64,000 bases of DNA from Nitrosomonadales bacterium (GTDB lineage Bacteria > Pseudomonadota > Gammaproteobacteria > Burkholderiales > Gallionellaceae), in assembly GCA_023259055.1 (NCBI GenBank), contig JAHFQZ010000003.1, positions 186,001-250,000 of the forward strand, written 5' to 3'. Below the pieces are notes generated by a model, which searched no databases, was not told the origin of the DNA, and saw nothing but the letters and a program-made list of their open reading frames with translations. The position numbers and the translations under genes were made by a program. Of this stretch, positions 58,390 through 64,000 are shown piece by piece (within the stretch, counting starts at the first letter, position 1; the number at the start of each line of letters is the position of its first letter).

Positions 58390-58458
58390 TAACCCCAATG
58401 GGTTATCTAGGCTACCCTTTATGGGTATGGACGCATGCAATCAGATTATTCCTATAAT
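58390..58458 (+). promoter_or_regulatory. Twin palindromes and -10 box upstream of tusA
   Basis: TAACCC-CAAT-GGGTTA (58390-58405) and TACCC-TTTAT-GGGTA (58413-58427) are two similar inverted repeats. A perfect TATAAT (58453-58458) follows, with a weak TGGACG -35 at 58428-58433 (spacing 19). The layout suggests an operator next to a promoter for tusA-dsrE2. It lies in the 339-base gap 58197-58535; a 9 bp AATCAGATT/AATCTGATT pair at 58439 and 58489 also surrounds the -10 box. Confidence 0.45.
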
Positions 58459-58535
58459 GTTTATATTGCTGTTTTTAAGATACGAATGAATCTGATTTCA
58501 GTGGTAATTATTAATTATTTGTGGGGGAAAAAATC

Positions 58536-58763
58536 ATGAATTTCGATAAAGAATTTGATGCTAGCGGTATGTCCTGTCCTTTGCCTATCCTGAAGACCAA
58601 AAAGGCGCTCGTCGACATGGCTTCCGGGCAAGTGCTTAAGGTGGTCTCGACCGATAGTGGCTCAGTGAAGGATATGCAGGCATTCGCCGATCAGACCGGC
58701 AATTCCTTGTTGTCTACAGACGAGGCAAACGGGAAATACACTTTTTACATGAAGAAAAAATAA
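58536..58763 (+). CDS. tusA: TusA-family sulfurtransferase
   Basis: A 75-residue sulfur carrier: MNFDKEFDASGMSCPLPILK holds the persulfide-bearing Cys14 in the CPxP motif. The rest is the typical two-layer fold (QVLKVVSTDSGSVKDMQAFA). It passes sulfane sulfur to acceptors in tRNA thiolation or sulfur oxidation. GGGGGA lies before the ATG at 58536. A DsrE2-like gene follows, a pairing typical of sulfur oxidisers. Confidence 0.92.
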   Translation: MNFDKEFDASGMSCPLPILKTKKALVDMASGQVLKVVSTDSGSVKDMQAFADQTGNSLLSTDEANGKYTFYMKKK

Positions 58764-58804: not shown

Positions 58805-59275
58805 ATGACTACCAAAAAAATGGCAATCATTGCCACCAAAGGTACGCTGGATATGGCGTATCCACCATTCATCCTCGCTTCAACTGCCGCCGCTTTGGGC
58901 TATGAGGTGCAGGTGTTCTTTACATTCTACGGTTTGCAACTGCTGCGCAAAGACCTGTCCACAGTGATGATCAGCCCACTTGCCAATCCCGCGATGCCGA
59001 TGCCTGTGCCGATGCCAGTAATGGTGCAAATGCTGCCCGGAATGGAATCCATGGCTACCATGATGATGAAGCAAAAATTAAAAAAACATGGTGTTGCCTC
59101 GTTGCAGGAGTTGCGCGATCTGTGTCTGGAGGCCGAGGTGAAATTCGTTGCCTGCCAGATGACGGTGGACCTGTTCGAATTCGACAAGAGCGAATTCATT
59201 GACAATATTGAATACGGCGGAGCGGCTACATTCTTGGGATTTGCCGGAGATACTGATATTTGTTTGTTTGTTTAA
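58805..59275 (+). CDS. DsrE2-like sulfur carrier
   Basis: A 156-residue DsrE/F/H-superfamily protein. The active Cys is likely C117 in EVKFVACQMTVDLFEF. The N-terminal KKMAIIATKGTLDMAYPPFI is typical, and C107 lies nearby. A Met/Pro-rich stretch (NPAMPMPVPMPVM, 61-73) in the middle is notable. DsrE2-type proteins interact with TusA in cytoplasmic sulfur transfer. It follows tusA by 41 nt with AAAAGGGG before the ATG. Confidence 0.88.
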   Translation: MTTKKMAIIATKGTLDMAYPPFILASTAAALGYEVQVFFTFYGLQLLRKDLSTVMISPLANPAMPMPVPMPVMVQMLPGMESMATMMMKQKLKKHGVASLQELRDLCLEAEVKFVACQMTVDLFEFDKSEFIDNIEYGGAATFLGFAGDTDICLFV

Positions 59276-60872: not shown

Positions 60873-61751
60873 TCACGTACCGGCGATGCGGTCAAAATAG
60901 CGTGCGCGGTAGAGCAGGCGCGGAGTAGTAGCATTGTCAGCAAAGGCAGCACGGTTATGCAGCACGTTGTTGCATAACAGGCCCATGCCGCGCTCAAGCC
61001 GCGCGAGATGGATATGCGGCGAATCAGACGCAAGCAATTTTTCGAGCATCGCAACAGCCGCCAAGGTGGTTGCGTCCTTTTTCCACACAATGCTTCGGGT
61101 GCGGGCGGTATAGCGCATGTGCAGGTCGCCGCTCGCGGGGTCGATGGAAAACACCGGGCCTGTTTGTGCTGGACGCGCTATACCTTGCTCGTCAATGCGT
61201 TCTGGAATCGTCATCGCATCCGGCGCGGAAAGCGCGAAGATAAAATCGCTATTTGCTTCACGCAGCATCAAGTAGGCGATTTCGTGATCCATCAGGCGAT
61301 TCTCGCCGCCGTGTCCGGCACTCTGCGCACAATGCAATACCAGGCTGTGTATCTGCTTTTCGGGAGCGTTGTAATAGCCGTCGGTGTGCCATTTGATGGC
61401 GCGGTCTGTATAGGGAATAAAAGCCTGCCGCAGCTCATCGTCAGCGCACACAGTGATGCGCGTGACGCCTTGTTTACTTGCCAGCCAGTTCGCATCCAGG
61501 CGATTCAAGCCAAACTGTTGCCCTAGTTGGCGAACCGAATTTTCATCGATATCTTCGGTACAGGATGCATAGATCGCCATGTTGCTGCGGCGGCAACGCG
61601 CCAAAAGTGCGGTGTGCTCTGCCACAGTCAGTGCGCGCGGTTTTTGGATTTCGACGATCAGCTCGTCAGTGTTGGTGATGGCATGTGCCAGCTTGTGATC
61701 GCGCCAGCGCAGATAAGCAGTAGCGTTGTCGAGATCAAATGGATTTTGCAT
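60873..61751 (-). CDS. TauD/TfdA-family Fe(II)/2-oxoglutarate dioxygenase
   Basis: A 292-residue oxygenase. The iron-binding HxD is HTDGYYNAPE (about 139-148), the distal His is likely in NNVLHNRAAF near the end (H268), and the 2-oxoglutarate Arg follows in PRLLYRARYFD. The substrate is unknown. TauD relatives cleave sulfonates such as taurine, which would fit the sulfur locus, but others in the family act on unrelated compounds. ATG 61751 chosen; no clear ribosome site. Confidence 0.8.
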   Translation of the reverse strand: MQNPFDLDNATAYLRWRDHKLAHAITNTDELIVEIQKPRALTVAEHTALLARCRRSNMAIYASCTEDIDENSVRQLGQQFGLNRLDANWLASKQGVTRITVCADDELRQAFIPYTDRAIKWHTDGYYNAPEKQIHSLVLHCAQSAGHGGENRLMDHEIAYLMLREANSDFIFALSAPDAMTIPERIDEQGIARPAQTGPVFSIDPASGDLHMRYTARTRSIVWKKDATTLAAVAMLEKLLASDSPHIHLARLERGMGLLCNNVLHNRAAFADNATTPRLLYRARYFDRIAGT

Positions 61752-61774
61752 CAATTGGTTTGCACTTGGTGAAT

Positions 61775-62371
61775 CTAATCCCCGCTGACAGTTTTGCGGA
61801 TGCGCGGTTGCCCCGGTTCTGTTTCGAATAAGTCGCGCATGGTTTTATCCACCATGCCAACGGCCTCTGGAGCTTCGATACTCATCATCTGGTCAATGAT
61901 CCAGTTACTGTCATTTTCATCCATAACTTCGCGCATACAGAAGCCAAGGTAACGGGTAAACGCAAATTCCGGGCCATCGCTGCCGTAATCAAACTCGGCG
62001 TATTCGCCGGAACGCTGGTTGAGCTTGTCGATGAAGTGCTGCTTGTGTATTTCAAAGCTGTTGCCTGTCAATCTGCTCTTGTTTTCCGCCAGTGTTTCCG
62101 CCACGCGATTTGCCAGAAAGCTGGTGAATGCAAGACGGTCTTCAGCGGGTAATTGGCGATAGGCAATGCGGTCAGCGACTTGAACAAGGAATAATAAAAA
62201 CTCGGTGAGAAAGGAAAAGTATTGTGTGCCGATTGCGATTTCAAATTTGGCTTTGCGGGTGTTTTTAAGTGCGTTATCCCCGATGCGCCATATGACAAAA
62301 GCCAGCGCACCTGCAATTTCCTGAGGCGTTCTCTTGTGCCCACTCTTAAACCAGTGGCTTTTGATCCTCAT
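61775..62371 (-). CDS. Conserved-looking hypothetical protein of the sulfur locus
   Basis: A 198-residue, mainly helical soluble protein (WFKSGHKRTPQEIAGALAFV, FEIAIGTQYFSFLTEFLLFL, DRIAYRQLPAEDRLAFTSFL, NSFEIHKQHFIDKLNQRSGE). One Cys only (LGFCMREVMDE). No motif that I can name. It lies between the dioxygenase and the tandem TusA gene on the same strand, with short gaps of 23 and 40 nt, so it is part of the minus-strand unit. Confidence 0.65.
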   Translation of the reverse strand: MRIKSHWFKSGHKRTPQEIAGALAFVIWRIGDNALKNTRKAKFEIAIGTQYFSFLTEFLLFLVQVADRIAYRQLPAEDRLAFTSFLANRVAETLAENKSRLTGNSFEIHKQHFIDKLNQRSGEYAEFDYGSDGPEFAFTRYLGFCMREVMDENDSNWIIDQMMSIEAPEAVGMVDKTMRDLFETEPGQPRIRKTVSGD

Positions 62372-62932: not shown

Positions 62933-63262
62933 TCAATATCCACCTTTACCATAAGGCTGGGGTAACCCGGCAATTTTAGCGCCTTGTTTTGCAGGGCCGG
63001 TTGGAAATAAATCATACAGAGATTTGCTGTCTGCCTCAGGCCAGAACTCCTGCACATCTTTCAGCATGTTGCGAAAGTTGGGTGTGTGGCCATGTTCCCG
63101 GTATTGATCGCGCATGTAATTGATTACCTGCCAATGCTTGGGTGTCAGCTCGATGTTTTCCGCCGCTGCAATGACGCTTACCACTTCCTCGCTGTAATCT
63201 GGCTCCAGCAAGTAGCCATCCGCATCGGTTTCAAGCTCTTTATTTGCAATTATGTATCCCAT
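62933..63262 (-). CDS. DsrC/TusE-like protein without cysteine (RspA-like)
   Basis: A 109-residue DsrC-family protein: GYIIANKELETDADGYLL, then ELTPKHWQVINYMRDQYREH and the C-terminal arm DLFPTGPAKQGAKIAGLPQP. In DsrC the arm has Cys where KQGAKIAG stands and a penultimate Cys at the end. Here both are absent (end: YGKGGY), and the protein has no Cys at all. Such Cys-less members have been called RspA and are thought to be regulatory. AGG precedes the ATG. Confidence 0.9.
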   Translation of the reverse strand: MGYIIANKELETDADGYLLEPDYSEEVVSVIAAAENIELTPKHWQVINYMRDQYREHGHTPNFRNMLKDVQEFWPEADSKSLYDLFPTGPAKQGAKIAGLPQPYGKGGY

Positions 63263-63278
63263 GATTAACCTCCGTTAA

Positions 63279-63869
63279 TTATTTCGCCTCATTCAAACCG
63301 GATATGACTTTGTGAGGCACAAATATTCCACACCCGAATTGGCGACTTTCTCCCAAGCCTGCATATTGCAATTGCAGGGATCCTTCCGGTTTCAGATCAT
63401 GTATCACCAAACTAAAGCCATGAATAGTATGCTGGTCGCCTGCAAGGGTGCGGCGTTTGCCGCAGATCAGTTGGGCCGTTATTTTCATTTCGCTTAACTG
63501 AGCCCTGATTCTGTCCATGAACATCGCTTCGTCGTTTGCGCCTGTTACCAGTTGCGAATGTAGGGTGGAAAAGGGTTGAATCTGGCGAGTCCTGCTTGTT
63601 CCTAACCGCAACTGGCTTGAGCCAATCTGTAAAGCGCTTCCACACAGACGCGATGCAGCACCTGACGATGCCGTCGGCAATCGTAGCACCAGCTTGGCGC
63701 GATTGGGAAGCAGCAAGCCTTCATTGCTTTCCGCTGTGCGCAATGGCAATACTCCTACCAGCTTTTCTTCGGCTAGATGTGGTGCATGGCGCACAATTTC
63801 TTCCCACAACGCAAATGGATAGGTAGCGGGAAGTGTTCCGCCGACAAGATCGAACACTATGTCGATCAT
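63279..63869 (-). CDS. Cas6/Cmx6-like RAMP protein in a sulfur locus
   Basis: A 196-residue protein (start ATG 63869, MIDIVFDLVGGTLPATYPFA; an ATG at 63890 is possible). Its N-terminal strand and GGTLPATYPFALWEEIVRH, then VGVLPLRT, LLLPNRAKLVLRLP and a C-terminal glycine loop GLGESRQFGCGIFVPHK match the pattern of Cas6-related Cmx6 (type I-MYXAN) proteins. Such proteins process CRISPR RNA, but no CRISPR or other cas gene is seen. The gene follows a partial frame by 13 nt and precedes the DsrC-like gene by 16 nt. Confidence 0.72.
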   Translation of the reverse strand: MIDIVFDLVGGTLPATYPFALWEEIVRHAPHLAEEKLVGVLPLRTAESNEGLLLPNRAKLVLRLPTASSGAASRLCGSALQIGSSQLRLGTSRTRQIQPFSTLHSQLVTGANDEAMFMDRIRAQLSEMKITAQLICGKRRTLAGDQHTIHGFSLVIHDLKPEGSLQLQYAGLGESRQFGCGIFVPHKVISGLNEAK

Positions 63870-63882
63870 CTCCGGGATTCCA

Positions 63883-64000
63883 TTAATCATTGGCTGGCTG
63901 CACTTGAGAATCTGCCCAATGTTGCATGGTAGTCGCCCATTGCTGTGCAGTAGCAGGATCGATATCAAAAATCGTAAAACGTTTACCCTCACGAATTCGG
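63883..64000 (-). CDS. C-terminal end of an upstream gene (partial)
   Basis: On the minus strand a frame is open from the window edge and ends at TAA 63885-63883. The visible 38 residues (IREGKRFTIFDIDPATAQQW, then ATTMQHWADSQVQPAND) look coding. It stops 13 nt before the Cas6-like gene, so it likely belongs to the same transcript. Too short to name. Confidence 0.55.
   Translation of the reverse strand, partial: RIREGKRFTIFDIDPATAQQWATTMQHWADSQVQPAND

Follow-up and report, generated by a model that had tools for sequence, protein, structure and literature searches.

The window analysed here is a stretch of 64,000 nucleotides, at the end of which a gene for a Cas6-like protein lies on the reverse strand beside genes for sulfur-related proteins. 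The features relevant to this locus are the following:

58390..58405, no strand assigned: dyad TAACCC-N4-GGGTTA (TAACCCCAATGGGTTA), a candidate shared operator, 115 bases before tusA of the tusA-dsrE2 pair
58521..58763, plus strand: tusA (profile matches)
58805..59275, plus strand: dsrE2 (profile matches)
60873..61754, minus strand: TauD-type Fe(II)/2-oxoglutarate dioxygenase-like protein (PF02668)
61775..62371, minus strand: 198-aa protein, matched by neither Pfam nor NCBIfam, found in every one of the order's 25 cas6 loci as well as in L195 and L196
62412..62936, minus strand: tandem TusA-TusA protein (profile matches)
62933..63262, minus strand: DsrC-family paralogue without C-terminal cysteines, ending in GKGGY (TIGR03342 103 bits, PF04358 118 bits)
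63279..63869, minus strand: Cas6-family RAMP protein, 196 aa, of a dsr-linked subfamily, with Tyr17 where the family has its conserved His (profiles, predicted fold, alignment)
63883..64000, minus strand: 3' part of a small DUF6967 gene (PF22295) that continues past the window edge, the ORF being conserved in 21/22 spacers

The open frame of the Cas6-like gene extends upstream to 63992. Profile matches bore out the neighbours named in the original prediction, namely a DsrC-family protein, a tandem TusA and a tusA/dsrE2 pair. The DUF6967 gene, for which the PF22295 match was obtained with the orthologue at L054, shares the strand of the Cas6-like gene and lies immediately upstream of it, between that gene and dsrA (L002:9883 onward). 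The next 10 kb of the contig hold dsrA, dsrB, dsrE, dsrF, dsrH, dsrC, dsrM, dsrK, dsrL, dsrJ and dsrO, in that order, names that are our reading of the ORFs from dsrA to dsrO, with dsrA confirmed by TIGR02064; the presence of dsrEFH and dsrL points to a dsr operon of the oxidative type. This operon is head-to-head with the Cas6-like gene and leads away from it, and no CRISPR locus is present at the window edge, in line with the sulfur setting that had been proposed for the gene.

The identification of the protein as a Cas6/Cmx6-like RAMP protein was upheld by profile matches. The 196-residue translation matched PF09559 'Cas6' with 186.8 bits (E 5.4e-55, cut-off 26.7), NCBIfam TIGR02807 cas6_cmx6 with 144.3 bits (cut-off 98.85) and six Cas6 models of PADLOC, and the glycine loop GLGESRQFGCGIF was found in it; in this C-terminal glycine-rich loop, G171, G173, G179, C180 and G181 are invariant across 58 sequences (alignment A2). 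The nearest solved sequence was 8fcj_B, the Cas6 of a type I-B CRISPR-associated transposon (E 2.9e-13). A RAMP/Cas6 fold was predicted by AlphaFold2 both for the window protein (mean pLDDT 91.1) and for its relative in Thiohalobacter thiocyanaticus (L145, 89.8), and the top Foldseek match of both was the type I-B transposon Cas6, with TM scores of 0.88/0.80 for 8fcj (rmsd 1.8, 27% identity) and 0.78/0.82 for 8fcu, followed mainly by other Cas6 proteins, the best-ranked matches being CRISPR RAMP structures, of Cas6 or another kind. Both its sequence and its predicted fold place the window protein in the Cas6 lineage. The type I-B protein, its closest solved structure, works in a Cascade-transposon complex, whereas the loci studied here show dsr and sulfur genes.

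The original prediction had also described the locus as being without CRISPR, with no array or other cas gene in the window. A direct-repeat scan of the 64,000 nt detected no CRISPR-like array, none was found in C9:240001-280000, and Cas1 was found in the host genome only on a different contig, C3. There, C3:1-5547 (L031) contains an array with a 66-base period, cas1, a cas2-like ORF and a cas9-sized ORF of 1082 aa, which we read, from the size and order of the genes, as a type II-C system separate from the Cas6-like locus. Type II-C CRISPR is not known to need a Cas6. The best cas3_core match in the genome reached 38.7 bits against a cut-off of 102.45, with none above, and Cas10 gave no match. 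The description therefore stands for the locus, which has dsr and sulfur genes and no array, but not for the genome, which has an array and cas1 on C3. The type I-MYXAN setting of cas3, cas8, cas7 and cas5 with an array was not found around the Cas6-like gene, where the dsr operon and sulfur genes lie instead. In an even sample of 369 gammaproteobacterial genomes, Cas1 was present in 51 of 118 carriers of the Cas6-like family and in 85 of 251 non-carriers (p=0.084), leaving 67 of the 118 carriers without it; the occurrence of the family does not follow CRISPR-Cas and has no significant link to Cas1.

Among 61 relatives from the order of the window, PF09559 was found in 24, giving 25 loci. A DsrC-like gene directly followed the Cas6-like gene in 25/25 of these, and dsrA was head-to-head with it in 24/25, the contig ending in the remaining one. 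In several order relatives the tandem TusA gave no tblastn match (L036, L046, L049, L051, L052, L195 and L196), and no tusA-tusA was found in 20 other gammaproteobacterial loci scanned. Both the Cas6-like gene and dsrA were present in 23 of the 61 genomes (dsrA above cut-off in 22, plus G050 with split copies), the Cas6-like gene alone in one (G031, at a contig end) and dsrA alone in none. The DUF6967 gene was also found in G654 and G627, where the order is DUF6967, cas6-like, dsrC-like, orf198 and tauD, divergent from dsrA.

The association extended to the class sample, where the Cas6-like family was present in 118 of the 369 genomes and dsrA, among the matches listed and with partial ones included that were judged to be real, in 119. 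Both occurred in 111 genomes, the Cas6-like gene only in 7, dsrA only in 8 and neither in 243 (odds ratio about 482, p 7e-75, a value that overstates independence since the genomes are related). In 84 genomes the two genes shared a contig, and in 82 of them they were divergent neighbours at 0.6-4.5 kb; they were unlinked on the same contig in G169, at 41 kb, and in G384, at 517 kb, and lay on different contigs in 27 genomes. The unlinked Cas6-like gene of G384 (L097:6666-8044) is head-to-head with an apparent RNase III gene (rnc) followed by era, as read from ORFs only. Most genomes with the Cas6-like gene only had interrupted contigs: in G378 the contig starts with a fragment of dsrA, in G127, G153, G187 and G246 no more than about 420 bases separate tauD from the contig end, and in G377 the contig stops just beyond the Cas6-like gene, while G359, with 2.6 kb on that side and no tauD, is a possible true exception. 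Likewise, in the five of the eight dsrA-only genomes that were looked at (G139, G271 and G298 being left out), contigs end near dsrA or tauD on the relevant side in G130, G170, G183 and G267, and G414, with 1.75 kb on that side and no tauD, may be a true exception. The listed matches are open reading frames without stops, distributed over many families, and the gene is retained in five genomes of only 1.0-1.1 Mb.

Outside the class the picture differed. In a phylum sample of 299 genomes the family was found in four, all from the order of the window and all with dsrA, and the Cas6-like protein was absent from every one of 47 genomes that have dsrA over cut-off and are from other classes. Dsr metabolism thus does not need this protein, which is a feature of the pathway as one class has it and not of dsr in general.

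A scan of wider genome contigs returned at least 582 relatives among at least 590 pattern matches, of which the best 80 were kept. Most of these 80 bear gammaproteobacterial or proteobacterial titles, in several cases those of known sulfur oxidisers (L129 is titled as an archaeon), and within the fetched flank dsrA was divergent in 60, tauD was present in 68 and a same-strand DsrC-like gene in 65. The 20 loci without dsrA fall into two sets of 10, one with less than 2.4 kb and one with 4.4-6 kb of contig on the dsrA side; in the second set, neither dsrA nor any other usual neighbour was found in the flanks of L123, L135, L163, L174 and L186, and tauD or the DsrC-like gene is kept in L114, L168, L178, L181 and L188. 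Linkage to dsrA is therefore a rule with exceptions. For the alignments A2 and A3, 57 of the 80 loci were used, L129 among them, and L131 and L138 were dropped because, within the matched range, an in-frame stop precedes the start; loci overlap at least twice (L089/L187 and L098/L128) and G010 gave two loci, so that the counts are not all of independent genomes. The five loci with no usual neighbour in the flanks are from giant sulfur bacteria (Parabeggiatoa, Thioploca, Marithrix and Thiomargarita), in which the Cas6-like gene is present.

Starting from dsrA, the other gammaproteobacteria have, in this order, tauD, a 63-aa ORF, in some loci a 235-aa ORF, the Cas6-like gene and the DsrC-like gene. 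The motif of the 63-aa ORF occurs in 54/56 spacers and the 235-aa ORF in 19/20 long spacers, both without a Pfam match over cut-off; the 63-aa ORF takes a place similar to that of the DUF6967 gene in the order of the window, although the two ORFs differ. Taken together, these results support the assignment of the Cas6-like protein to the sulfur locus more strongly than the window alone could show.

In the 127 loci examined, 99 DsrC-like proteins lie directly downstream of the Cas6-like gene on the same strand. Likeness to the DsrC/TusE family is clear, as the window partner is well over the cut-offs of PF04358 and TIGR03342, but the tail differs: it is RKGGY (72) or GKGGY (27) in 99/99, with the penultimate carrier cysteine absent, and 93 of the 99 have no cysteine in the last 20 residues, the other 6 keeping one. 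In contrast, all 65 DsrC proteins encoded on the opposite strand have at least two cysteines near the end and terminate in GCV or GCI. The penultimate cysteine is described as strictly conserved in DsrC in the literature (PMC3397948). Since it is missing, the KGGY-tailed partner should not carry sulfur in the known way, and its sequence suggests a role in regulation or structure. DsrC homologues without the cysteines have been called RspA, and no paper on this naming was found in the open-licence literature.

To compare the dsr-linked subfamily with Cas6 proteins from a CRISPR context, we used seven cyanobacterial plasmid proteins annotated as I-MYXAN Cas6, six of which adjoin cas3, the Gloeobacter one being without another annotated cas gene within 5 kb. 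They share with the dsr-linked proteins the PF09559/TIGR02807 family, the glycine loop, the His of the xDH motif and Arg63, and have 24-29% identity to a gammaproteobacterial dsr-linked member. Their charge is distinct: the seven are basic, with a median pI of 9.4, whereas most dsr-linked proteins are acidic to neutral, with medians of 5.8 in the wider sample (35 rows, 4.8-9.2) and 6.4 in the order (25 rows, 5.4-9.3). In a tree, 59 dsr-type rows were split from the 7 I-MYXAN Cas6 proteins with a support of 100/99; the split is unrooted, with seven CRISPR-linked sequences, one of the 67 rows (<150 residues) having been left out and L046 included twice. Arg57 (35/35 and 24/24 scored rows) and Lys187 (34/35 and 25/25 rows) are specific to the dsr-linked subfamily and are not conserved in the seven CRISPR-context proteins.

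The His at the start of helix 1, which we take to be the catalytic His as in other Cas6 proteins, was found in 57/57 contig-scan sequences, 34/34 scored rows of the wider sample and 7/7 CRISPR-context proteins. In the genus of the window, Tyr replaces it in 22 of 23 loci, including Tyr17 of the window protein, and only L035 keeps the His. By sequence alignment the 8fcj Cas6 has Asn at this place, so the His is not universal in working Cas6 complexes. Persulfide carriage by the protein's own cysteines was considered and rejected, as Cys136 is present in 25/25 order rows but in only 26/35 of the wider sample, and Cys180, though conserved, is also found in 6/7 CRISPR-context members; neither cysteine points to a sulfur role.

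We also looked for an RNA that the protein could recognise. A hairpin before dsrA is conserved in 22 loci (L041 was left out of alignment A4, 21/22), and it stood out in folding against shuffled sequences, its energy being better on the dsrA strand, although the z-scores rest on 30 column shuffles, of which some hardly varied, and are not to be taken at face value. The hairpin was rejected as an RNA target: a compensatory change was present in only 1 of 15 pairs, the hairpin model matched only the window's own locus (L002) and L043 among 26 sources and a single site in the genome, and dyads of a similar kind are present in gammaproteobacterial dsrA-tauD spacers and before tusA. No Rfam family matched it, and no RNA ligand was found. 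A per-sequence scan, limited to the first 45 of 58 and of 56 spacers and to 12 shuffles each, gave z below -2 in 17/45 dsrA leaders, 12/45 tauD leaders and 4/45 tauD-cas6 spacers, several of the best hairpins being the dyads themselves.

The dyad before tusA in the window resembles the conserved element before dsrA (L002:10196-10305), which holds a similar repeat in the genus of the window. TAYCCC-N4-GGGRTA was present in 21 of 58 dsrA-tauD spacers from the named contig-scan loci (L113-L192), while the strict dyad at other spacings from 0 to 10 was found in at most 2 of the 58. A relaxed dyad occurred in 30/58 dsrA-tauD spacers, against 2.4 in shuffles, and in 1/56 tauD-cas6 spacers; the relaxed pattern was beyond chance at two further spacings as well (N8 in 30/58, N3 in 18/58), and the dsrA-tauD spacers may hold more than one kind of site. 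Upstream of tusA the dyad was found in 7/13 regions, against 0.025 in shuffles (7/11 in the genus of the window, 0/2 in others), with the spacing fixed after the L002 site had been seen, so that L002 is not independent; at the wrong spacing tried at first it was found in 0/13. Over the whole window a loose dyad was not significant, with 6 matches against 2.99 expected. These patterns make the dyad a candidate site of a sulfur regulator, that is, a putative shared DNA operator and not an RNA target, and the dsrA hairpin is better explained as such an operator.

Considering the evidence as a whole, a protein of the Cas6 lineage almost certainly works in the dsr locus of Gammaproteobacteria outside CRISPR, and probably has a role in sulfur metabolism. 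The likeliest mechanism would be regulation at the RNA level. The Cas6-like gene, the KGGY-tailed DsrC paralogue and the TauD-type oxygenase would form an operon-like run divergent from dsrABEFHC and the following genes, from which the Cas6-like protein could bind structured RNA and adjust dsr expression, with the DsrC-like protein possibly acting as a sensor that couples this adjustment to sulfur status. In lineages with the conserved His the protein may also cut RNA, while in the genus of the window it would bind RNA without Cas6-type cutting. We infer RNA binding because of the fold, the glycine loop and the conserved His; the sharing of the loop and Arg63 with CRISPR-context Cas6 speaks for RNA as the ligand. 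A regulatory role is suggested because the protein is absent from other classes, its gene is divergent from the operon and its partner lacks the carrier cysteine. In Allochromatium vinosum on sulfide, dsrEFH and dsrC transcripts exceed that of dsrA (Grimm et al. 2010, as cited in PMC3397948), so abundance in that operon is adjusted somehow, and the differential levels could come from internal promoters. The loss of the His in most of the window's genus and the mostly acidic to neutral charge of the proteins speak against a simple RNA reading. As a complete statement, a dsr-locus protein of the Cas6 lineage that adjusts dsr expression at the RNA level is a tentative proposal, which we place somewhat below an even chance.

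This same charge and the lost His bring a second reading close behind the RNA mechanism, namely that the RAMP fold has been reused as a protein-binding accessory, for assembly, scaffolding or chaperoning of DsrAB, DsrC or the oxygenase, without RNA. The subfamily-specific Arg57 and Lys187, together with the adjacency to the DsrC paralogue throughout the order, fit a scaffold of this kind, but a pure scaffold would have no need of the family His and glycine loop that the gammaproteobacterial branch keeps, and we regard it as a serious contender that is nevertheless unlikely. Binding of tRNA, in aid of a sulfur- or oxygenase-dependent tRNA modification, would suit a protein with an RNA-binding fold whose gene neighbours encode DsrC/TusE-family, TusA and oxygenase proteins, the DsrC family including the TusE of tRNA thiolation. 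The thiolation idea, raised in the original prediction alongside RNA-level control of sulfur genes, is weakened by a partner without the penultimate carrier cysteine, and the presence of the protein tracks dsrA, with no tusA-tusA in the 20 loci of other gammaproteobacteria; this explanation appears improbable.

The adjacency of the genes itself allows a more neutral explanation, since co-occurrence of neighbours can be partly the loss or gain of one cluster, as would be expected of a passenger carried with dsr and having no function related to it. Stop-free frames over many families, persistence in the five small genomes and retention where the gene is unlinked from dsrA (G169 and G384) are at odds with this, and we judge it very improbable. 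Still less credible, to the point of being nearly negligible, is that the protein acts in trans as a CRISPR Cas6 on crRNA of unlinked arrays: the NCBI model does name it type I-MYXAN Cas6/Cmx6 and the host has an array, but over half of the carriers have no Cas1, the host system is of apparent Cas9 type with neither cas3 over cut-off nor Cas10, and the dsr-type proteins form their own tree group. Returning to RNA-level regulation, a more elaborate version would have the Cas6-like protein as the recruited, CRISPR-derived RNA arm of a sulfur-responsive module, in which the KGGY-tailed DsrC senses the sulfur or DsrC state and its Cas6-like neighbour acts on dsr RNA by binding or cutting it, the module being kept through genome reduction; we consider this version doubtful.

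No paper linking a Cas6-like protein to a dsr locus was found in the open-licence literature, and others may exist elsewhere. The window protein and 7/7 other subfamily members tested exceed the TIGR02807 'equivalog' cut-off (seven dsr-type members score 101-151, against 206 and 255 for two I-MYXAN Cas6 proteins tested), so automatic annotation would name the subfamily 'type I-MYXAN CRISPR-associated protein Cas6/Cmx6', and genomes can be credited with CRISPR parts that they may lack. The finding shows that, in a large group of ecological importance, a subfamily of Cas6 has its conserved setting in energy metabolism and not in immunity, and it offers, in the Cas6-like protein, the KGGY-tailed DsrC paralogue and the TauD-type oxygenase, a testable gene set for the control of the dsr operon.
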